From: Novosphingobium sp. 28-62-57 | GTDB taxonomy: Bacteria; Pseudomonadota; Alphaproteobacteria; Sphingomonadales; Sphingomonadaceae | Length of the DNA stretch: 64,000 nucleotides | Direction of reading: 5' to 3' | Assembly: GCA_002256985.1 (NCBI GenBank) | Contig: NCGO01000001.1 | Location: 496,001-560,000 of the forward strand | In this document: one piece after another, positions 801 to 55,179 of the stretch | How the letters are laid out: each line of letters starts with the position of its first letter | How positions within the stretch are numbered: the first letter of the stretch is position 1 | Program-made: the position numbers and the translations under genes | The notes under the pieces: generated by a model | Databases searched by the model: none | The model's input: only the letters and a program-made list of their open reading frames with translations | What the model was told of the DNA's origin: nothing

Positions 801-877
801 CCCCCGCGAAGGCGGGGGTCTCAAGAGGGTTACGCGGAGGTTCTGTAACAGGCCTGAGGCCCCCGCCTTCGCGGGGG
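801..877. repeat. Dimeric palindromic repeat, copy 1
   Basis: Two GC-rich hairpins face each other: CCCCCGCGAAGGCGGGGG at 801-818 and CCCCCGCCTTCGCGGGGG at 860-877. They are joined by a conserved linker with a GTTAC...GTAAC core and CCTGAGG. The same two-hairpin layout occurs at 4146-4276 and 9835-9912. It sits in the 119-bp gap between rdgB and hemW, so it is transcribed with them and could act as a processing or attenuation structure; no function is shown. Confidence 0.85.
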
Positions 878-8559: not shown

Positions 8560-8670
8560 GCCCCTCCCTCTCCCCTTTAGGGGAGAGGGCTGGGGAGAGG
8601 GGGATGAGTAGTGGGCGCGGCATGAATACGCCCCCTCTCCCAACCCTCTCCCCTGAAGGGGAGAGGGCTT
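8560..8670. repeat. Double palindromic repeat between dnaK and dnaJ
   Basis: Two related hairpins: CCCTCTCCCC...GGGGAGAGGG on the left (about 8566-8590) and the same sequence around GAA on the right (8645-8667). Each is flanked by GGGGAGAGGGGG or its complement, so the whole block is also one large inverted repeat. The right arm ends just before the dnaJ ATG and its GGGGAGAGGG is the only purine-rich sequence at ribosome-site distance. Related sequences occur at 24089-24160 and inside the permease gene at 51981-52016. Confidence 0.87.
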
Positions 8671-20208: not shown

Positions 20209-20290
20209 AAATTTAACCCGTTCGTGTCGAGCGAAGTCGAGACAACGCGCACTGGTGTCTCGACTTCGCTCGACACGAACGGGTAAATTT
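20209..20290. repeat. 82-bp near-perfect inverted repeat
   Basis: Arms of about 35 bases (AAATTTAACCCGTTCGTGTC... at 20209-20244 and its complement at 20256-20290) differ by one base and enclose 11 bases. The core TTCGTGTCGAGCGAAGTCGAGA is related in style to the CTTCGACAAGCTCAGG repeats at 50731 and 55097. It sits between convergent genes, so it would form a strong hairpin in either transcript. Confidence 0.88.
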
Positions 20291-24826: not shown

Positions 24827-25591
24827 ATGATCGAACACGCCCATCTTCCAGACCCTGTGGCGCTCTTGCCCGGCCTTGCGCGCGGGCTGGGGGCAACCAC
24901 CCGCACCCCTCGCTGGCATCCCGGTATCGCCACCGGTTGCCGCCATGCCGAACTGTTCGCCCCCGCCCGCGATGCATCGGGAGCCGGACTGGCGCTGGCC
25001 TTCGCGCGTGATGCTCTCGCCCGGGAGCAGGCGGCTGAAACCCCGGACCGCCGCCCCTTCCTGTGGGTGCAGGACAAGGCGGCGCTGCGCCTTTCGGGCC
25101 GCCCCTATCTGCCCGGCCTGCCAGCGGAACTGCGCCATCGCCTGATCCACGTCGCCGCCGTCACGCCCGAAGACGCATTGTTCGCGCTGGAAGAGGGCCT
25201 GCGCTGCCGCGATCTTGCTTTCGTGATCGGCGAACTGGCCGGCAACCCGCGCGCGCTCGATTTCACCGCCTCGCGCCGCCTAAGCCTTGCGGCGGAAAAG
25301 CATGGAGTGCCGTTGTGGCTGGTGCGGCTCGATGCGCGGCGTGATCTGGGGGCGGCACGGATGCGGTGGGAGGTGGGAGCAGCGCCATCGCCCCAATCGC
25401 GCTGGAACCCGCACGCCCCCGGCACCTCCACCTGGCGCGCTGACTTGTTCCGCACCCACACCTTTCACCCCGGACAATGGAATTTGCGCGATGACGGTGC
25501 CGTCCTCACCGCTGAACCAGCCCCATCCGCCACGCCGGATCATGGCGATCTGGTGCACGGATCTGGCGATCGATCGCTGGCGGCTGGCTGA
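24827..25591 (+). CDS. imuA: ImuA-like SOS mutagenesis protein
   Basis: A 254-aa protein in the position of imuA (SulA/RecA-related), the first gene of the imuA-imuB-dnaE2 error-prone repair cassette. It contains RecA-fold-like segments (RPFLWVQDKAALRLSGRPYLPGL, EEGLRCRDLAFVIGELAG, LDFTASRRLSLAAEKHGVPLWLVRL) and ends with a disordered Pro/Ala tail. The Walker A lysine is not evident, as usual in ImuA. Start 24827 follows AAAGGAGC at a good distance and lies under the LexA box. It overlaps the imuB frame by 101 bases. Confidence 0.85.
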   Translation: MIEHAHLPDPVALLPGLARGLGATTRTPRWHPGIATGCRHAELFAPARDASGAGLALAFARDALAREQAAETPDRRPFLWVQDKAALRLSGRPYLPGLPAELRHRLIHVAAVTPEDALFALEEGLRCRDLAFVIGELAGNPRALDFTASRRLSLAAEKHGVPLWLVRLDARRDLGAARMRWEVGAAPSPQSRWNPHAPGTSTWRADLFRTHTFHPGQWNLRDDGAVLTAEPAPSATPDHGDLVHGSGDRSLAAG

Positions 25592-27077
25592 GGGTCTCGC
25601 GTGTCGGGAAGGGCCAGATGCCACCCCGCTCGCCCTGATCGAGGATACCGCGCACGGTCCCCGCATCGCCGCTGTTAACGCCGCCGCGCGCGCTGCCGGG
25701 GCCATGCCCGCCATGCGCCTTGCCGATGCGCGCACGCTGTGCCCCGTGCTTGCCGTGCGCCCGGCTGATCCGGCAGGCGATCTTGCCTTTCTGGAAAGCC
25801 TTGCGCTTTGGGCGCAGCGCTGGGGCCCATGGAGCGCGCTTGATCCGCCCGATGGCCTGCTCGTCGATGTCACTGGCGTCGCCCACCTGTTCGGCGGCGA
25901 ACGCGCGTTGATTGCCGATGTGCTGGCTTTGCTGGAAAAGCGCGGCCTTGCTGCTCGCGCCGCGCTCGCCCCCACTGCAGGTGCGGCATGGGCATTGGCC
26001 CATTACGCCCCGCAAGCCGCGATCCTGCCGCCAGAAGCGGACCCGCGCGCGCACCTTGCCGATCTCCCGGTGGCCGCGCTGCGCCTCGATGCCGATGTGG
26101 TCCTGCTGCTGCGCCGCCTTGGCCTCAAACGTCTGGGCGATCTCGATGGCCTCGCGCGCGAAAATCTGGCGCGGCGTTTCCGTAACACCCGTTCGGCCGC
26201 CGCCAATCCGCTGCTCCGGCTTGATCAGTTGTTCGGCCTGCGCCCCGAACCGCTGCTGCCGGTGGTGGGCGTGCCCGCGCCGCTCGTCCAGCGCCGGTTG
26301 ATGGAGCCGATCCGCCATCGCCCGCTGCTCGATCAGGTCGTGGCCGATCTGGCGCAAGACATGGCGCGCCTGCTCGAAGGGCAGGCGCAGGGCGCGCGCC
26401 GTCTGGAACTGGGCATGTGGAAAGTCGATGGCGAAGTGCTCATCCGCTCCCTCGAAATGGCCGCCGCCACGCGTGATCCGGCGCATGTCTGCCGCCTGTT
26501 CGCCACGCGCCTCGATGATCTGGACGCCGGTTTCGGCATCGAACTGGTGCGCCTGCGCGCCTCATGGACCGAGCCTTTGCTGCTCGCTCAGGCCGATCTT
26601 GATGCCGCAGCTGAATCTCACGGCACCAGCCTTGCCGCCTGTATTGACCGGCTGACCGTGCGCCTCGGTGCGCAAGCGGTGCGCCGCCCGGTCCCCCATG
26701 CCAGTCACCTGCCGGAGCGCGCACAGCGCTGGCAGCCGCCACTGGCAGACCTGCCATCTTCGCAAGAGGAATTACGTTTCCACCACAGGCCCCTGAAAAT
26801 TCTCGACAAACCCGAATCCGTCTCGGTGATCTATGAAACCCCCGATGGACTTCCCCGCCGCTTCCGCTGGCGCGGTGAAGTGCATGAAATCGCCCGCGCC
26901 GAAGGGCCGGAACGCATCGCGCCTGAATGGTGGCGCGAACGCTCGACCGTGCGCCTGCGCGACTATTACCGGATCGAGGATGCCCTCGGCCGCCGCTACT
27001 GGCTCTACCGCCACGGCGTGATCGGCGATGGCCGCGGCGGCGCGCCTGAATGGTTCATCCAGGGGCTTTTTGCCTGA
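25491..27077 (+). CDS. imuB: ImuB, catalytically inactive Y-family polymerase homologue
   Basis: Bridges DnaE2 and the sliding clamp during translesion synthesis. The protein (528 aa from 25491) has the DinB/UmuC fold: palm region DGLLVDVTGVAHLFGGERAL, a finger/thumb helix-hairpin-helix (LLRRLGLKRLGDLDGLARENLARRF), and the C-terminal extension of ImuB. The N-terminal metal-binding Asp and the Ser-Ala-Asp-Glu motif of active polymerases are missing (the start reads MAIWCTDLAIDRW), as expected for ImuB. A clamp-binding motif is not obvious. The start is uncertain: 25491 overlaps imuA by 101 bases; 25542 (MAIWC) is the alternative. Confidence 0.92.
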   Translation: MTVPSSPLNQPHPPRRIMAIWCTDLAIDRWRLAEGLACREGPDATPLALIEDTAHGPRIAAVNAAARAAGAMPAMRLADARTLCPVLAVRPADPAGDLAFLESLALWAQRWGPWSALDPPDGLLVDVTGVAHLFGGERALIADVLALLEKRGLAARAALAPTAGAAWALAHYAPQAAILPPEADPRAHLADLPVAALRLDADVVLLLRRLGLKRLGDLDGLARENLARRFRNTRSAAANPLLRLDQLFGLRPEPLLPVVGVPAPLVQRRLMEPIRHRPLLDQVVADLAQDMARLLEGQAQGARRLELGMWKVDGEVLIRSLEMAAATRDPAHVCRLFATRLDDLDAGFGIELVRLRASWTEPLLLAQADLDAAAESHGTSLAACIDRLTVRLGAQAVRRPVPHASHLPERAQRWQPPLADLPSSQEELRFHHRPLKILDKPESVSVIYETPDGLPRRFRWRGEVHEIARAEGPERIAPEWWRERSTVRLRDYYRIEDALGRRYWLYRHGVIGDGRGGAPEWFIQGLFA

Positions 27078-27119
27078 TTCCACCTGTCCACAGGTTCGGG
27101 CTGGCGCATCATTGCGAAA

Positions 27120-27134
27120 GAACATATAAAGAAC
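27120..27134 (+). promoter_or_regulatory. LexA box upstream of the radical SAM repair gene
   Basis: GAAC-ATATAAA-GAAC, ending only two bases before the ATG at 27137. This second operator inside the cassette implies a separate SOS promoter for the downstream genes (radical SAM, UdgX, dnaE2), as well as possible read-through from imuA. Confidence 0.85.
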
Positions 27135-27136
27135 AA

Positions 27137-28384
27137 ATGTCTCAGTTGTCCGTTCTCGAACGTCTCGAAATCCTTGCCGATGCTGCCAAGTATGATGCTT
27201 CGTGCGCATCATCCGGCACTGCCAAGCGCAACAGCAAGGGTGGAAAAGGCATCGGATCGACCGAGGGCATGGGCATTTGCCATGCCTATGCGCCCGATGG
27301 CCGCTGCATTTCGCTGCTCAAGATCCTGTTGACCAATCACTGCGTGTTCGATTGCCATTACTGCATCAACCGCAAAAGCTCAAACACCCGCCGCGCGCGC
27401 TTCACCCCGCAGGAAGTGGTGGACCTGACGCTGTCGTTCTACCGCCGCAATTATATCGAGGGGCTGTTCCTGTCCTCAGGCATCATCAAAAGCGCCAGTC
27501 ACACGATGGAACAGTTGATAGAAGTCGCCCGTATCCTGCGGGAAGAACACGATTTCCGCGGCTACATCCACCTCAAGACCATTCCCGAGGCAGATCCCGA
27601 ACTGGTTGCGCAAGCCGGGCTCTATGCCGATCGCGTCTCGATCAATGTCGAACTGCCCACGGTGGCGGGCCTCACCCGCCTTGCGCCCGACAAGTCCGCG
27701 CCGCAGATCGAAGGCGCAATGGGGTCGCTGAAAGAGGCCATCGTCGAAGCCAAGGACGCCCGCAAGCGCTTCCGCAACGCGCCGAAATTCGCGCCCGCCG
27801 GGCAGTCGACGCAGATGATCGTGGGCGCAGATGCCGCCACCGATTCCGATATCGTCGGCCGCGCCAGCACGCTTTACGGCAACTTCGGCCTGCGCCGCGT
27901 CTATTACTCGGCCTTCAGCCCGATCCCCGATGCCAGCGCGGTCCTGCCTTTGAAGCGCCCGCCCTTGATGCGCGAACACCGGCTCTATCAGTCCGACTGG
28001 CTGATGCGCTTCTATGGCTATGCTCCGCACGAGGTGCAGCAGGCTGCCGGGGCCGACGGCATGTTGCCGCTGGATATAGACCCCAAGCTCGCCTGGGCGC
28101 TGCGCTTCCGCGGCGATTTTCCTGTCGATGTAAACCGCGCTCCGCGTGAGAAACTGCTGCGCGTGCCGGGGCTGGGGGTGAAGGCGGTCAACGCGATTGT
28201 CGCTGCGCGCCGCCAGCGCCGCCTGCGTCTGGCCGATGTCGGCAAACTCACCGTCTCGATCACCAAAGTGCGCCCGTTCATCATCGCCGAAGACTGGCGG
28301 CCGGTGCTGCTGACTGATCGCACGGATCTGCAAAGCCTGATCGCGCCTGCAGCACGCCCGGCGCAGATGGAATTGTTTGCATGA
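27137..28384 (+). CDS. Putative DNA modification/repair radical SAM protein
   Basis: A 415-aa radical SAM protein of the family described as putative DNA modification/repair (TIGR03916 type). The cluster motif CVFDCHYC is near residue 75; the N-terminal block KYDASCASSGT and ICHAYAPDGRC adds further cysteines. The C-terminal 70 residues hold a helix-hairpin-helix (LLRVPGLGVKAVNAIVAARRQ) for DNA binding. It overlaps the UdgX gene by four bases (ATGA), a pairing usual for this family. Reaction is unknown; photoproduct or base repair is an inference. It is the first gene behind the internal LexA box and begins almost leaderless. Confidence 0.9.
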   Translation: MSQLSVLERLEILADAAKYDASCASSGTAKRNSKGGKGIGSTEGMGICHAYAPDGRCISLLKILLTNHCVFDCHYCINRKSSNTRRARFTPQEVVDLTLSFYRRNYIEGLFLSSGIIKSASHTMEQLIEVARILREEHDFRGYIHLKTIPEADPELVAQAGLYADRVSINVELPTVAGLTRLAPDKSAPQIEGAMGSLKEAIVEAKDARKRFRNAPKFAPAGQSTQMIVGADAATDSDIVGRASTLYGNFGLRRVYYSAFSPIPDASAVLPLKRPPLMREHRLYQSDWLMRFYGYAPHEVQQAAGADGMLPLDIDPKLAWALRFRGDFPVDVNRAPREKLLRVPGLGVKAVNAIVAARRQRRLRLADVGKLTVSITKVRPFIIAEDWRPVLLTDRTDLQSLIAPAARPAQMELFA

Positions 28385-29832
28385 CGCCGTTCCGCAGCAT
28401 GCGCCTGCCCGAAGCGTTCCGCATAACGCTTAGCGCGCCTGATGATTTCGAAGGCTGGCGTGATGCCGCGCGCCGGATGATCCGCGCCGATGTCCCACCC
28501 GACCGGATCACGTGGGAATCGCCTGCCGACCAGAGCGCTGACCTGTTCGCGCAAGGTGACCGCCGCCTGCCAGCGCAGCCCGCTGATGCCCCGCAGCCCC
28601 GCGCCTCGCGCGACTTCCTGCAACTTGCGCAAAGCGTCATCCTTCACTCTGATAGCACACGGTTTTCGCTGCTCTACCGCATGCTCTGGCGGCTCCAGTC
28701 CCGCCCGCGCCTGATGGAGGACAAGGCCGATGCCGACGTGCGCGCGATGGAGGACCTGGCCCGGAACGTGCGGCGCGATATTCACAAGATGCGTGCCTTC
28801 GTGCGCTTTCGGGTGATCGAAAGTGAAGCGGGCGATCACTACGTCGCGTGGTTTGAGCCGGACCATCACATCCTGCGCGCCAATGCCGGGTTCTTCGTGC
28901 GCCGTTTCACCACGATGCACTGGTCGATCCTCACCCCGCGCGGCACTTTGCATTGGGATGGCGAAGTCTTGCAGGAGGGGCCCCCCGCCACCCGCGCCGA
29001 TGCGCCATCGGGCGATCCGGTGGAGGCGCTGTGGCGCAAATACTATGCTTCCACCTTCAATCCGGCGCGGCTGAAGATCGGCGCTATGCTCAAGGAAATG
29101 CCCCGCCGTTACTGGAAGAACATGCCTGAAACCGCGCTGATCCCCGAACTGATCGCAGGCGCTCAGGCGCGCGAGGCGCAGATGGTGAAGGCGGGTGAGC
29201 AGGACTTTGGCGAGCAGCCACAAAGCCTTGCTGCCATTGCCGAGGCCATTCTCGCCTGCCGCCGCTGCGAGATGGGTTGCAATGGCACCCGCGCAGTCAT
29301 GGGCGAGGGACCCCAAGGGGCAGCGCTGATGATCGTGGGCGAACAGCCCGGCGATACCGAGGAAGCGCAGGGGAAACCCTTTGTGGGCCCTGCCGGACAA
29401 CTTCTGCGCGCACATCTGCAGAATGCCGGGATCGACATGGAGCAGGCCTATGTCACCAATGCGGTCAAGCACTTCAAGTTCGTGCCGCGTGGCAAACACC
29501 GCCTGCATCAGAACCCCACCGCCAAGGAAATCGACATCTGCCGCTGGTGGCTGGATGGCGAACGCGCGCTGGTGCGTCCGCGCCTTGTGCTGGCATTGGG
29601 AGCCAGCGCCGCGCGCAGCCTTCTGGGCAAGACGGTGAGCGTGCAGAAAGTGCGCGGAGAGCCACAGGTTCTGGCAGATGGCAGCGAATTGTGGATCACC
29701 ACGCACCCCAGCTACCTCTTGCGGCTCGAAGATCAATCCCGCGCCGAGGAAGAAGCCAAGTTTGCGAATGACTTGCGCAAGGTATCTACGCGTCTTTCGG
29801 AACTTTCCGGGCGTATAAGCACCGAAGGCTGA
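28381..29832 (+). CDS. DUF4130-UdgX fusion (uracil-DNA binding/glycosylase family)
   Basis: A 483-aa fusion. Residues ~1-260 match the DUF4130 domain found beside the radical SAM partner. Residues ~280-480 are a family 4-like uracil-DNA glycosylase of the UdgX type: cluster cysteines in CRRCEMGCNGT, motif GEQPGDTEEAQGKPFVGPAG, then NAVKHFKFVPRGKHRLH and THPSYLLRL. UdgX proteins have an inserted loop with KRRIH whose His traps uracil-DNA covalently; here the loop reads KHRLH, keeping the His and one basic residue. It should therefore bind uracil-containing DNA tightly, possibly covalently. It overlaps dnaE2 by one base. Confidence 0.88.
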   Translation: MTPFRSMRLPEAFRITLSAPDDFEGWRDAARRMIRADVPPDRITWESPADQSADLFAQGDRRLPAQPADAPQPRASRDFLQLAQSVILHSDSTRFSLLYRMLWRLQSRPRLMEDKADADVRAMEDLARNVRRDIHKMRAFVRFRVIESEAGDHYVAWFEPDHHILRANAGFFVRRFTTMHWSILTPRGTLHWDGEVLQEGPPATRADAPSGDPVEALWRKYYASTFNPARLKIGAMLKEMPRRYWKNMPETALIPELIAGAQAREAQMVKAGEQDFGEQPQSLAAIAEAILACRRCEMGCNGTRAVMGEGPQGAALMIVGEQPGDTEEAQGKPFVGPAGQLLRAHLQNAGIDMEQAYVTNAVKHFKFVPRGKHRLHQNPTAKEIDICRWWLDGERALVRPRLVLALGASAARSLLGKTVSVQKVRGEPQVLADGSELWITTHPSYLLRLEDQSRAEEEAKFANDLRKVSTRLSELSGRISTEG

Positions 29833-32800
29833 TGCCCGATCCGCCGCTTACACCGCCGCGCCGCCATGTCCTGCCGGTAGAAGGCGACCCGCCGCCGCCT
29901 GCGCCCTTCGTGGAACTGGGCCTTGCCAGTTGCTTTTCGTTCCTGCGCGGCGCGTCCGAGGCGGCGGCGCTGGTCGAGACCGCCCGCAGCCTTGGCTATG
30001 ATGCGCTGGGCATTGCCGATGCCAACACCATGGCGGGCGTGGTGCGTCTGCATACCGAGTCAGAATCCGCCCGCTTGCGCCCGATCATCGGATGCAGGAT
30101 CGAGACGGTCGAAGGGCTGGCTTTCCTTGCCTATCCGCAAGACCGTGCCGCCTATGGACGCCTGTGCCGCCTGATTTCGGCAGGCCGCATGTCGACGCTG
30201 GACGGGGAATGGCAAGCCAAGGGTGTGTGCGATATCGATCTGGCCCTGCTCGCCGCCCATGCCGAGGGCGTGCATCTGATCCTGATCCCGCCAACTGTTC
30301 TGGATCAAGTGCTTACAGTGGAAACTGAAAGCAATATCTACGCTTTTCCAGCGGGGGAAGGGGCACCTGCTCCACAGTCAGTCCACAGCCTGTCCCAGCC
30401 TTTTACAGAAGTTCTGCCCCGGCTTGTCCACAGGCTGCCCACCTTGCGCCACATCGCGGCGAGTTACCTTTACGTGGGCGACGATATCGCCCGGATCGAA
30501 CGGCTCGATGCTTTGGCCCGCGCCAATGGCCTGTCGCTGCTGGCCACCAATGACGTGCTCTATGCCACGCCCGACCGTCGCCCACTGCAGGATGTCATGA
30601 CGGCGATCCGTCACAAGACCACTGTCGCGGCGGCGGGCCATCTGCTGGAACCCAATGCTGAGCGGCACTTGAAATCGCCGGAAGAAATGGTGCGCCTGTT
30701 CCAGCGCTGGCCTCATGCCATCAAGGCGGCGCGCGATGTGGCCGATACCTGCTGCTTCAACTTGTCCGAATTGCGCTACGAATATCCGGAAGAAATCTGC
30801 CCCGATGGCCATGATCCGCAATCGTGGCTGGAGGACCGGACATGGGCTGGCGCTACAGAATTCTATGGCGGAGATGTGCCCGAAGCGGTCGCCGATACCT
30901 TGCGCCGGGAACTGGCCCTGATCGGCAAGCTGAACCTCGCAACTTACTTCCTGACCATCAAGGACATCGTTGATTTCGCGCGCAATTGTGATCCGCCGAT
31001 CCTGTGTCAGGGGCGTGGCTCGGCGGCCAATTCTGCCGTGTGTTTTTGCCTTGGCATCACGTCGGTGGACCCCGCCAAACATGCCTTGTTGTTCGACCGC
31101 TTTATCTCCGAAGAGCGCAAGGAACCCCCTGATATCGACGTGGATTTCGAGCATGAGCGGCGCGAGGAGGTCATCCAGTACATCTACCGCCGCTATAGCC
31201 GCGAGCGGGCGGGGCTCTGCGCCACGGTCATCCACTACCGCCCGCGCATGGCGATCCGCGAGGTGGGCAAGGCGATGGGCCTTTCCGAAGATGTGACCAG
31301 CGCGCTCGCTCGCACCGTCTGGGGCAGCTGGGGCAGCGAAGTGGGGGAGCGGAACGTCACCGAGAGCGGCCTGGACGGCACCGACCCGCACCTGAAGCGC
31401 GTGGTAAAGCTGGCCGAACAGATGATCGGGATGCCGCGCCATCTGTCGCAGCACGTTGGCGGCTTCATCCTGACGCAAGGCCCGCTGGTGGAGACGATTC
31501 CCATCGGCAACGGCGCGATGGCCGATCGCAGTTTCATTGAGTGGGACAAGGACGATATCGACGCGCTGGGCATCCTGAAGGTCGATGTGCTGGCGCTGGG
31601 CATGCTCACCTGCATCCGCAAGTGTCTGGATTTGCTGGGTGAACACCACGGTCGCACGCTGACGCTGGCCACAGTCCCGCGTGAGGACCCGGCGGTTTAC
31701 GACATGCTGTGCAAGGGCGATTCGCTGGGCGTGTTTCAGGTGGAAAGCCGCGCGCAGATGAACATGCTGCCACGCCTGCGCCCGCGCTGCTTTTATGACC
31801 TTGTGATCGAAGTGGCGATCGTGCGGCCGGGGCCGATTCAGGGCGATATGGTCCATCCTTACCTGAAGCGGCGGCGGGGAGAGGAGAAGGTGGAAATCCC
31901 TGCGCCCGGCCCGGAGCACGGCCCGCCGGACGAGCTTTCCTCGATCCTCGCCCGTACGCTGGGCGTGCCGATCTTTCAGGAGCAGGCGATGAAGATCGCG
32001 CTCGATGCGGCCAAATTCTCCAGCCTTGAAGCCAACCGGCTGCGCAAGGCCATGGCGACGTTCCGTTCACGCGGGATGGTGCACGAGCTTGAGGACATGA
32101 TGGTGGGGCGCATGGTGCAGCGCGGCTATGATCCCGATTTCGCAGCGCGCTGCTTCAACCAGATCAAGGGCTTTGGCGAATACGGCTTTCCCGAAAGCCA
32201 TGCCGCCAGCTTTGCGCATCTGGTCTATGTCTCGTCATGGCTGAAGTGCCATTATCCCGCGGCCTTTGCCTGCGCTCTGCTCAATTCGCAGCCGATGGGG
32301 TTCTATGCCCCGGCTCAGATCGTGCGCGATGCGGCGCAGCATGGGGTGGTGGTGCTGCCGGTGGATGTGAACCATTCGCACTGGGACTGCACTTTGGAAG
32401 ACGTGGATTCGCGCAGAGGCGCAGAGGCGCGGAGGGGATTGGATTCGCGCGGAGACGCGGAGACGCGGAGAAAGGAAGAAGAAGGGGAGGAGCCTGCGGC
32501 GCAGCCACTTTCATCACCTTCCTTCTTCTCCGCGTCTCCGCGGCTCCGCGTGAACCCTGAAACGCAGCCCCTCTGCGCCTCTGCGCCTCTGCGCGAACCC
32601 CAACTGGCGCTCCGCCTCGGCCTGCGGCAGATTGACGGTTTCCCCGAACACGCAGCCGCCATGCTTGTCGCTGCCCGCAGTGAAGACGGTCCTTTTACCG
32701 ATGCCGCCAGCCTCAAGGATCGCGCCGGGCTCTCACCCACACTTATCGAGCGCCTTGCCGCGGCCGATGCGCTCGGCTCGCTGGGCCTTTCGCGCAGGCA

Positions 32801-33473
32801 GGCGCTGTGGGATGCGCGCAGCCTGATTGCGCCCAAGGAACTGCCGCTGTTCGCCGCCATGACGGCACGGTCACAGGGCGAAGAGCGGCACCGTGCCGTG
32901 CTGCCGATGATGCCGCTGTCCGAAGAGGTCGTGGCCGATTACCAGACGCACCGGCTTTCGCTGAAAGCCCACCCCATGGCGTTTCTGCGGCCGATGCTGG
33001 GTGATCGCGGCTTTGTGCGCGCGGCAGACCTGCGCAATCACAAGTATCGCGCCACGGTGCAGGTGGCCGGTGTGGTGCTGGTGCGCCAGCGCCCCGGCAG
33101 CGCCAAGGGCGTGTGCTTCATCACGCTGGAGGACGAGACCGGGGTGGTGAACCTCGTGATCTGGCCCGATCTGTTGGAAAAGCAGCGCAAGGTCATCATG
33201 GGCGCGCGGCTGATGGAGGTGCGCGGAAGGGTGGAGTACGACGACGAAGTCATCCATGTCATCGCCACGCACCTGACCGATGCGAGCGCCAGCCTTGATG
33301 CGCTGTCCGATGCCGACCGCCTTGTCCCGCCAATCGCGCGGGCGGATGAATGCAACCGCCCAATCCCTGAACGCACTGGCTTCAGACAGGGCGGTTTTTC
33401 ACAAGCCGGTCCGGGCGCACGCACGCACCCCCGCGATGTGCGGATCATCCCCAAATCGCGCGATTTCCACTGA
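29832..33473 (+). CDS. dnaE2: Error-prone DNA polymerase DnaE2
   Basis: C-family polymerase for SOS mutagenesis together with ImuA and ImuB. The 1213-aa protein has a PHP-like N terminus (ELGLASCFSFLRGASEAAAL) that has lost key metal ligands, a palm with PDIDVDFEHERREEV (two catalytic Asp), finger and tandem HhH regions, and an OB fold (VQVAGVVLVRQRPGSAKGV, FITLEDETGVVNLVIWP). It is longer than usual because residues 859-923 are encoded by an in-frame palindromic repeat (32406-32600) between DCTLEDV and QLALRLGLRQI. Start at 29832 overlaps the UdgX stop by one base. It is probably SOS-induced through the box at 27120. Confidence 0.95.
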   Translation: MPDPPLTPPRRHVLPVEGDPPPPAPFVELGLASCFSFLRGASEAAALVETARSLGYDALGIADANTMAGVVRLHTESESARLRPIIGCRIETVEGLAFLAYPQDRAAYGRLCRLISAGRMSTLDGEWQAKGVCDIDLALLAAHAEGVHLILIPPTVLDQVLTVETESNIYAFPAGEGAPAPQSVHSLSQPFTEVLPRLVHRLPTLRHIAASYLYVGDDIARIERLDALARANGLSLLATNDVLYATPDRRPLQDVMTAIRHKTTVAAAGHLLEPNAERHLKSPEEMVRLFQRWPHAIKAARDVADTCCFNLSELRYEYPEEICPDGHDPQSWLEDRTWAGATEFYGGDVPEAVADTLRRELALIGKLNLATYFLTIKDIVDFARNCDPPILCQGRGSAANSAVCFCLGITSVDPAKHALLFDRFISEERKEPPDIDVDFEHERREEVIQYIYRRYSRERAGLCATVIHYRPRMAIREVGKAMGLSEDVTSALARTVWGSWGSEVGERNVTESGLDGTDPHLKRVVKLAEQMIGMPRHLSQHVGGFILTQGPLVETIPIGNGAMADRSFIEWDKDDIDALGILKVDVLALGMLTCIRKCLDLLGEHHGRTLTLATVPREDPAVYDMLCKGDSLGVFQVESRAQMNMLPRLRPRCFYDLVIEVAIVRPGPIQGDMVHPYLKRRRGEEKVEIPAPGPEHGPPDELSSILARTLGVPIFQEQAMKIALDAAKFSSLEANRLRKAMATFRSRGMVHELEDMMVGRMVQRGYDPDFAARCFNQIKGFGEYGFPESHAASFAHLVYVSSWLKCHYPAAFACALLNSQPMGFYAPAQIVRDAAQHGVVVLPVDVNHSHWDCTLEDVDSRRGAEARRGLDSRGDAETRRKEEEGEEPAAQPLSSPSFFSASPRLRVNPETQPLCASAPLREPQLALRLGLRQIDGFPEHAAAMLVAARSEDGPFTDAASLKDRAGLSPTLIERLAAADALGSLGLSRRQALWDARSLIAPKELPLFAAMTARSQGEERHRAVLPMMPLSEEVVADYQTHRLSLKAHPMAFLRPMLGDRGFVRAADLRNHKYRATVQVAGVVLVRQRPGSAKGVCFITLEDETGVVNLVIWPDLLEKQRKVIMGARLMEVRGRVEYDDEVIHVIATHLTDASASLDALSDADRLVPPIARADECNRPIPERTGFRQGGFSQAGPGARTHPRDVRIIPKSRDFH
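32406..32600. repeat. Nested palindromic element inserted in frame in dnaE2
   Basis: Outer arms GCGCAGAGGCGCAGAGGCG (from about 32411) and CGCCTCTGCGCCTCTGCGC (to about 32594) enclose inner arms GCGGAGACGCGGAGA...GGAAGAAG and CTTCTTCTCCGCGTCTCCGC. The block is 195 bp, exactly 65 codons, with no stop in the reading frame used. It encodes a low-complexity, Arg/Glu/Pro/Ser-rich stretch foreign to DnaE2. Similar GCGCAGAGGCGC sequences are known as intergenic palindromic repeats in sphingomonads; none other was found in this window. Confidence 0.88.
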
Positions 33474-40991: not shown

Positions 40992-41229
40992 GATCAGCGT
41001 TTACTCACCGGCACGTAATCACGCTGTGCAGGGCCGGTGTAGAGCTGGCGCGGCCAACCGGTTTCTCTTGAGAAACCGGCAACAGGACAAGCGGCCGCGC
41101 CTTGCATCTGATCAGCGTTCACTCACCGGCACGTAATCGCGCTGTGCTGGGCCGGTGTAGAGCTGGCGCGGCCAACCGGTTTCTCTCGAGAAACCGGCAA
41201 AAAGACAAGCGGCCGCGCCTTCCATCCGA
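40992..41229 (-). repeat. Two tandem 118-bp units carrying decayed copies of the gltA 3' end
   Basis: Unit A (40992-41109) and unit B (41110-41227) directly follow the gltA stop. Each starts with about 62 bases homologous to the last codons and stop of gltA ([18 protein letters not shown] or SKR, then TGA). Each continues with a hairpin CCGGTTTCTC/GAGAAACCGG inside a larger stem GGCGCGGCC/GGCCGCGCC. Differences among A, B and gltA fall mostly in third codon positions. The hairpin part is not present in gltA itself. Read leftward, the hairpins could also end gltA transcription. Confidence 0.92.
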
Positions 41230-50730: not shown

Positions 50731-50808
50731 TGCTTCGACAGGCTCAGCACGAGCGGGGTTTGGGATTGTCCATCAGAGATTCCGCTCATGCTGAGCCTGT
50801 CGAAGCAT
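50731..50808. repeat. CTTCGACA-type inverted repeat between tesA-like and ABC genes
   Basis: Arms TGCTTCGACAGGCTCAGCA (50731-) and TGCTGAGCCTGTCGAAGCA (-50807) with GAGCGGG and CCGCTC next to them, around about 24 bases. It is the same family as the repeat at 55097-55179 but with a different inner sequence. It stands in the divergent promoter region and could influence both genes. Confidence 0.87.
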
Positions 50809-55096: not shown

Positions 55097-55179
55097 ATCC
55101 TTCGACAAGCTCAGGATGAGCGGGGCTGGTGAAACAGAAACATGCACAAAGACCGCTCATCCTGAGCTTGTCGAAGGAT
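55097..55179. repeat. CTTCGACAAGC inverted repeat between trpD and trpC
   Basis: Arms ATCCTTCGACAAGCTCAGG (55097-) and CCTGAGCTTGTCGAAGGAT (-55179), both continuing into GATGAGCGG / CCGCTCATC, around about 29 bases. It would form a long stem in the trp mRNA between trpD and trpC. This CTTCGACAAGCTCAGGATGAGC sequence is a widespread sphingomonad repeat. Confidence 0.9.

Follow-up and report, generated by a model that had tools for sequence, protein, structure and literature searches.

The window analysed here, a 64,000-nt stretch of the Novosphingobium sp. 28-62-57 genome, contains an operon-like set of genes at 25410-33473 with touching or overlapping ends, which encode an ImuB-like Y-family polymerase, a radical SAM protein, a DUF4130 and uracil-DNA-glycosylase fusion, and the error-prone polymerase DnaE2 (Table 1). 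The dnaE2 reading frame runs through a nested palindromic insert at the loop that joins the polymerase fingers to the helix-hairpin-helix part of the protein. The original prediction described this element as a nested palindrome read in frame and adding 65 codons, and we confirmed both its structure and its extent. The linker between the WDCTLE and LRLGLRQ segments is 210 nt in this gene versus 15 nt for the empty linker of N. taihuense, which puts the addition at 195 nt, or exactly 65 codons. An inverted-repeat search resolved two arm pairs, with outer arms of 42 nt that match at 86% and inner arms of 32 nt that match at 91%. The outer pair reached an inverted-repeat score of 27, and no inverted repeat scoring above 14 was found in five shuffled windows (2-mers shuffled). 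The predicted RNA fold of the insert was -153 kcal/mol compared to -87 +/- 5 kcal/mol in 200 shuffles (z -13.1), none of which folded as well. Endless arrays of either the GCGCAGAG or the GCGGAGAC unit are free of stops in all six frames, and a small palindrome of the type found in the core also occurs, as judged by eye, in other copies of the family described below. No Rfam match was found within the window at the gathering threshold. Six other strong inverted repeats of different sequence, with scores of 16-29 and including GTCGAGCGAAGTCGAGAC and CCTTCGACAAGCTCAGGATGAGC types, are also present in the window.

Table 1. Features of the dnaE2 locus and recurrent sites of GxxExxY genes. Positions refer to the window; L numbers denote loci in other sequences or elsewhere in the genome.
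Feature	Position or loci	Strand	Basis
dnaE2, error-prone DNA polymerase III alpha-type protein, 1213 aa, host of the insert	29832..33473	+	ORF; Pfam DNA_pol3_alpha, finger, HHH_6, PHP
Nested palindromic insert, in frame, residues 859-923	32405..32600	+	Inverted repeats, alignment, RNA fold
Outer left arm, 8-bp units GCGCAGAG, end motif TTCGCGC	32405..32446	+	Inverted-repeat search
Inner left arm, units GCGGAGAC	32441..32472	+	Inverted-repeat search, BLAST
Core between inner arms, with small palindrome CTGCGGCGCAG	32473..32525	+	Sequence
Inner right arm	32526..32557	+	Inverted-repeat search
Outer right arm, ending GCGCGAA	32559..32600	+	Inverted-repeat search
Site B, second permissive DnaE2 loop, PHP domain, residues about 173-186	30348..30390	+	Inverted repeats of relatives
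Other strong inverted repeats of the window	801-877, 8566-8667, 20216-20284, 41058-41197, 50731-50807, 55097-55179		
GxxExxY with palindromic arms between fabD and fabG (fatty-acid synthesis operon)	L039, L151, L152, L153, L156, L157, L158, L161, L221		Mostly flanking sequence
Second recurrent GxxExxY site, 3 genus cases	L040, L155, L162		By eye

The two conserved segments that flank the insert had been expected to lie almost next to each other in a normal DnaE2. This is true of the nearest relatives with an empty site (L044, L097, L135 and L139), in which the linker is 5 residues, but not of DnaE2 at large, where the linker spans 3 to 101 residues in the sequences in which the anchors were found. 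Given that these close relatives lack the insert, we rejected the possibility, raised with the original prediction, that it is an old conserved domain. The insert is also not specific to one strain, since a sister species carries it as well (L042 = L071; 92% identical) with the outer left arm eroded. The sister genome is a separately assembled MAG, which makes an assembly error unlikely. Other relatives carry different inserts at the same point of the linker.

We compared 107 DnaE2 ORFs (109 minus 2 duplicates), some of which are fragments or incomplete. The linker that holds the insert, referred to here as site A, contained an inverted repeat with a score of at least 14 in 16 of the 107 ORFs, and a motif rule assigned 12 of these 16 to the tandem-unit arms of the insert's kind; the other 91 ORFs, some incomplete at this point, had no inverted repeat there. 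A second loop, site B in the PHP domain, held an inverted repeat in 15/107 ORFs, seven of them of the insert's kind, and none was found at site B of our own dnaE2. Only three inverted repeats lay elsewhere in the 107 ORFs, all at the threshold score of 14, such that sites A and B account for 31 of the 34 gene-places with inverted repeats. The palindromes classed as having no 8-bp units were those of L043, L055, L085 and L114 at site A and of L052, L055, L057, L062, L072, L118, L123 and L129 at site B. When the 8-bp-unit trait was mapped on a DnaE2 tree, it changed 11 times at site A (12 carriers) and 6 times at site B; the tree was a quick build from residues 300-845 only, with some long branches, and the count cannot separate gain from loss, but we infer that most of these changes were gains. 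L119 has inserts at both loops, and L121, which is 95.7% identical to it in aligned DNA, has neither.

We considered that the insert could have been domesticated as a functional part of DnaE2, either as a regulatory mRNA hairpin or as a partner-binding segment. The insert is in frame and common to the sister species, and its predicted RNA fold is strong in both (-141 kcal/mol in the sister). Between the two species, 28 of its 195 sites differ, which is below the 0.405 per synonymous site observed in the rest of the gene, suggesting that the insert is somewhat constrained and not freely drifting, or that it has been homogenized. However, the constraint on the encoded protein is relaxed, with a dN/dS of 0.62 in the insert versus 0.07 in the rest of the gene, and the majority of DnaE2 ORFs with no inverted repeat at site A, the different inserts found at the same spot and the eroded arm in the sister all argue against domestication. 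In an AlphaFold2 model of residues 715-1051, itself modest overall (mean pLDDT 70.7, pTM 0.53), the blocks of the insert have pLDDT values of 36-52 and lie between two short strands. This low confidence likewise speaks against domestication, agrees with the disordered loop proposed in the original prediction and fits an insert that is predicted to be disordered. Taken together, we regard domestication as improbable, and the insert would be close to a passenger as far as DnaE2 is concerned.

The insert belongs to a dispersed family, as had been anticipated. BLAST of the insert against its own genome returned 85 matches, with both strands and the insert itself included, and we read 40 element places in total, 33 around the BLAST matches and 7 from a second query. 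The locus L028 was left out of this count, and the bounds of five places (L026, L033, L036, L037 and L038), where one arm or none met the motif, were taken from BLAST ends. The usual ends of the element are TTCGCGC...GCGCGAA. Four copies are nested by eye (L009, L010, L013 and L041). A second repeat lies within the core of L020 and L029 (GGGATGACGTTAAACT...), as if elements nest in each other. We asked whether other copies also sit inside genes, and the dnaE2 copy was the only clearly intragenic one among the 33 places covered by open frames and inspection by eye. In the other long frames that span an element, the element is near the end of the ORF or before the apparent start of the gene, or the frame looks antisense; for this, 12 places were translated and judged by eye. 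We did not observe a target-site duplication at the two L119/L121 sites, at L041/L135 or at L072/L107/L109, where divergence of the flanks blurs the ends. As a query against plasmids, the insert gave partial matches in 3 records. One of these, the Sphingopyxis indica plasmid pMC4, holds a partial family copy in a gap between listed genes (L223 2501-2729), and carriage on such a conjugative plasmid is a possible route of spread for the family. Titles and abstract openings in the literature on palindromic elements, sphingomonad repeats, PDDEXK proteins, intervening sequences and DnaE2 contained no description of this family.

Two of the 33 places in the genome hold a gene of the GxxExxY family, each between arms of the family type. 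The inner left arm of the insert shares a stretch of 30 identical bp (32444-32473) with the right arm of one of these elements (G000:C1:56953-56982, located at C1:56.5 kb of the same genome). The outer arms of the insert, made of GCGCAGAG units, have by eye a full-length match to neither of the two GxxExxY arms, and the arms of the insert fit the type seen in GxxExxY elements, namely tandem units of about 8-11 bp of the CRCRGAG type. Each of the 14 full-length GxxExxY genes found in 59 Novosphingobium genomes is flanked by inverted arms, with scores of 14-38 overall and of at least 20 in 13 cases; the partial matches L159 and L160 were left out of these counts. None of 4768 background windows (from the genus, the class and TIGR02436 loci) reached a score of 14, and a control with wider windows at random places in DnaE2 loci gave 21/4800 at 14 or above and none at 20 or above. 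Outside the genus, arms scoring at least 14 were present around 9 of 20 GxxExxY genes in the class, with 8 partial loci left out (L204-L206, L214, L216, L217, L219 and L220), and around 21 of 30 in the phylum among the matches listed.

The GxxExxY protein matches the Pfam family PF13366 (PDDEXK_3) of the PD-(D/E)XK superfamily. Across 34 GxxExxY proteins, the positions corresponding to E32, D72, E82 and K84 are conserved in 33, 34, 33 and 32, respectively, and all four residues are present in 32 of the 34, the exceptions being L201 and L215. These counts should be read with the alignment in mind, as 25 of the proteins were placed by a motif that itself contains three of the four residues (25/25 kept there) and 9 others were added. 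The four conserved positions form what we take to be the pattern expected of a PD-(D/E)XK active site. The structure of the protein was predicted with a pLDDT of 94.9. No Foldseek match in the PDB had an E value of 0.001 or better; the best were 4ic1 (SSO0001, E 2.4e-3), followed by Bax1, CinB and AddAB, several of which presumably belong to the same superfamily. The passage on GxxExxY found in the literature concerns reverse transcriptases and not palindromes.

We examined whether the repeat and the gene occur together at the level of genomes. The repeat was present in 10 of 10 genomes with an over-cutoff GxxExxY match versus 14 of 49 without one (Fisher p 3e-5 over 59 genomes), a value that counts genomes separately despite their relatedness. 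The comparison is also in part circular, since a repeat match may be nothing other than an arm of a GxxExxY element. This circularity is apparent in G025, whose only placed repeat match is a GxxExxY arm; the other 9 genomes with GxxExxY also match elsewhere. The 14 repeat-bearing genomes (of 24) that have no over-cutoff GxxExxY include G007, which is near-complete and has 44 repeat matches, indicating that copies can persist without GxxExxY. The gene also does not look very mobile, given that by eye 11 of the 14 genus cases fall at one of two recurring operon sites. Eight of the 14, as well as a case in Sphingomonas parapaucimobilis, lie between fabD and fabG according to annotation and flanking sequence (L157 by eye), and the second site is flanked by what we take to be saccharopine-dehydrogenase-like and carboxynorspermidine-decarboxylase-like genes.

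The repeat-bearing genomes without an over-cutoff GxxExxY and the recurring operon sites speak for a rival reading, in which an enzyme unlinked to the palindromes, such as a RAYT/HUH transposase or an IS transposase, or else replication slippage, would move them, with GxxExxY captured once between arms or thriving beside hairpins. The bracketing of every full-length GxxExxY gene in the genus by arms, its recurrence outside the genus and the arms held in common by GxxExxY elements and dispersed short copies argue against it. For example, the arms of the G013 element occur by eye from match lists at about 11 other places in G013. In 12 other genomes, the G013 arms matched one short element (in G011) and sequence beside GxxExxY in G023 and G066, and the remaining matches to the G013 element were parts of the gene body. 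The G009 arms occur by eye at about 8 other places in G009, at many places in our genome, whose arms are of a related type, and at a small number in other genomes; they are thus not private to G009. They had no match in three of four genomes without GxxExxY, with one marginal match outside the arms in the fourth, and no match in G025, which has GxxExxY. We consider an unlinked enzyme an unlikely explanation, although one that deserves to be weighed seriously.

A further reading is that the palindrome grew in place through quasi-palindrome template switching and slippage of tandem units, with no insertion at all. Arms belonging to a single element at the fab site score 16-36 against each other, compared with 6-29 for the same arm between species, suggesting that both arms tend to be rewritten together as the gene stays put. 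Since the arms change together in this way, hairpin-templated correction may well occur. Growth in place nonetheless appears highly improbable as an origin of the insert, given that the same end motifs and arms are found at about 40 places in the genome and that relatives have an empty site.

The TIGR02436 family, presumably the S23-type family, provided a comparison for the arms. We found no TIGR02436 gene in our own genome; 14 other genomes matched in the same search. Among the matches listed, TIGR02436 genes lie between inverted arms scoring at least 14 at 13 of 19 loci in the class and at 13 of 28 new loci in the phylum. Arms thus bracket these four-helix-bundle genes at 26/47 loci among the matches listed, e.g., L233, L237, L240, L253 and L264. 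The best period of the TIGR02436 arms was 7 bp in 23 of 26. GxxExxY arms reached a score of 14 in 23 of 34 genus and class cases and 21 of 30 phylum cases, and of these 44, 42 had a best period of 8-11 bp and the other 2 one of 5 bp, with no case at 7 bp. For all of these period and arm counts, the phylum part refers to the matches listed. The difference in period between the two families gave a Fisher p of 1.5e-15, an optimistic value because related genomes were counted separately, and periods of short arms are estimated with considerable noise.

The arms also differ in how readily they can be translated. TIGR02436 arms had a mean of 3.5 open frames of 6 versus 4.4 when shuffled, i.e., more stops than expected, and the GxxExxY arms of the genus had a mean of 5.6 versus 5.0 when shuffled, i.e., fewer stops than expected. 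All six frames were open in 9 of 14 genus GxxExxY arms, 14 of 30 other GxxExxY arms and 3 of 26 TIGR02436 arms. This openness offers a reason why the GxxExxY kind could live inside proteins more easily than the TIGR02436 kind. We tentatively propose, while slightly doubting that it will hold in full, that two widespread classes of palindromic mobile elements exist, one with GxxExxY and the other with TIGR02436 as its protein, and that the protein fixes the arm period (8-11 bp versus 7 bp). Stop-free GxxExxY units could then live in protein genes, which would explain in-frame palindromes, and 7-bp arms, often with stops, would be confined to intergenic and rRNA sites, giving rise to 23S intervening sequences.

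The insert had been likened to the Rickettsia palindromic elements (RPEs), reportedly described by Ogata et al. in 2000 and 2002. The likeness stands in that the insert is read in frame, is open for translation and looks selfish, with 65 codons added to a protein gene by predicted translation, but it does not extend to the large share of copies inside genes. As described in PMC10969869, RPEs are about 150 bp and nearly half of them are inserted in ORFs; our family resembles them as a dispersed alphaproteobacterial palindrome of about 100-200 bp that is found in frame within a protein gene, and differs in that a single place of 33 lies clearly inside a gene. The 8-bp tandem-unit arms, the nesting and the link to GxxExxY are further differences. 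Given that the many-copies-in-genes feature is missing, we did not file the insert as an RPE. The 23S rRNA intervening sequence of Coxiella is a stem-loop element with an S23 ORF, whose function and origin are called unclear in PMC4990558. The likeness to such sequences lies in a stem-loop with inverted repeats at its borders that takes the place of a small loop of the host molecule and in some cases holds a small ORF (PMC4990558). They carry the S23 four-helix-bundle protein and lie in 23S rRNA, whereas here the host is a protein gene, the insert is in frame and the coding copies carry an ORF of the GxxExxY family.

Miniature inverted-repeat elements (MITEs) are also comparable, as short non-autonomous copies that share ends with a longer coding copy (PMC10969869). 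Terminal inverted repeats are common to the insert family and the coding element; a difference from MITEs is that the coding copy of the family carries a putative nuclease, and no target-site duplication was seen at the sites with blurred ends noted above. REP sequences pair with RAYT transposases, and the present family is similar in that palindromic repeats are paired with a small DNA-processing enzyme, but the enzyme here is of the PD-(D/E)XK type by Pfam and the arms are built of tandem units. How Rickettsia-type in-frame palindromes move is, to our knowledge, an open question. What is new here is the link of dispersed palindromes to a putative nuclease gene, GxxExxY, which suggests what may move them.

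In summary, the original interpretation of the dnaE2 insert is supported by our analysis, and the explanation that we favor, with a probability of roughly two in three, treats the insert as a MITE-like element without coding capacity that is related to a GxxExxY palindromic element and tolerated in a disordered loop. In the coding members of the family, inverted arms of this tandem-unit type would flank the PD-(D/E)XK gene. The insert would represent two elements, nested one inside the other, that reached the DnaE2 loop joining the fingers to the helix-hairpin-helix part, probably before the species diverged from its sister, in which both are also present. The insert could have persisted because its arm units are stop-free in any frame and because the loop tolerates extra disordered residues. 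The putative nuclease GxxExxY may drive the copying; it could nick or resolve hairpins or target DNA, for instance, and repair would then copy the element.

Collectively, our findings single out two tolerant loops of DnaE2 at which mobile DNA has repeatedly added segments to the protein. The link to GxxExxY makes the question of how such palindromes move a testable one: if GxxExxY elements are the coding relatives of in-frame palindromes, a small nuclease gene together with its arms could be tested directly. A hypothesis of function is thereby gained for two widespread families of small proteins, GxxExxY and TIGR02436.
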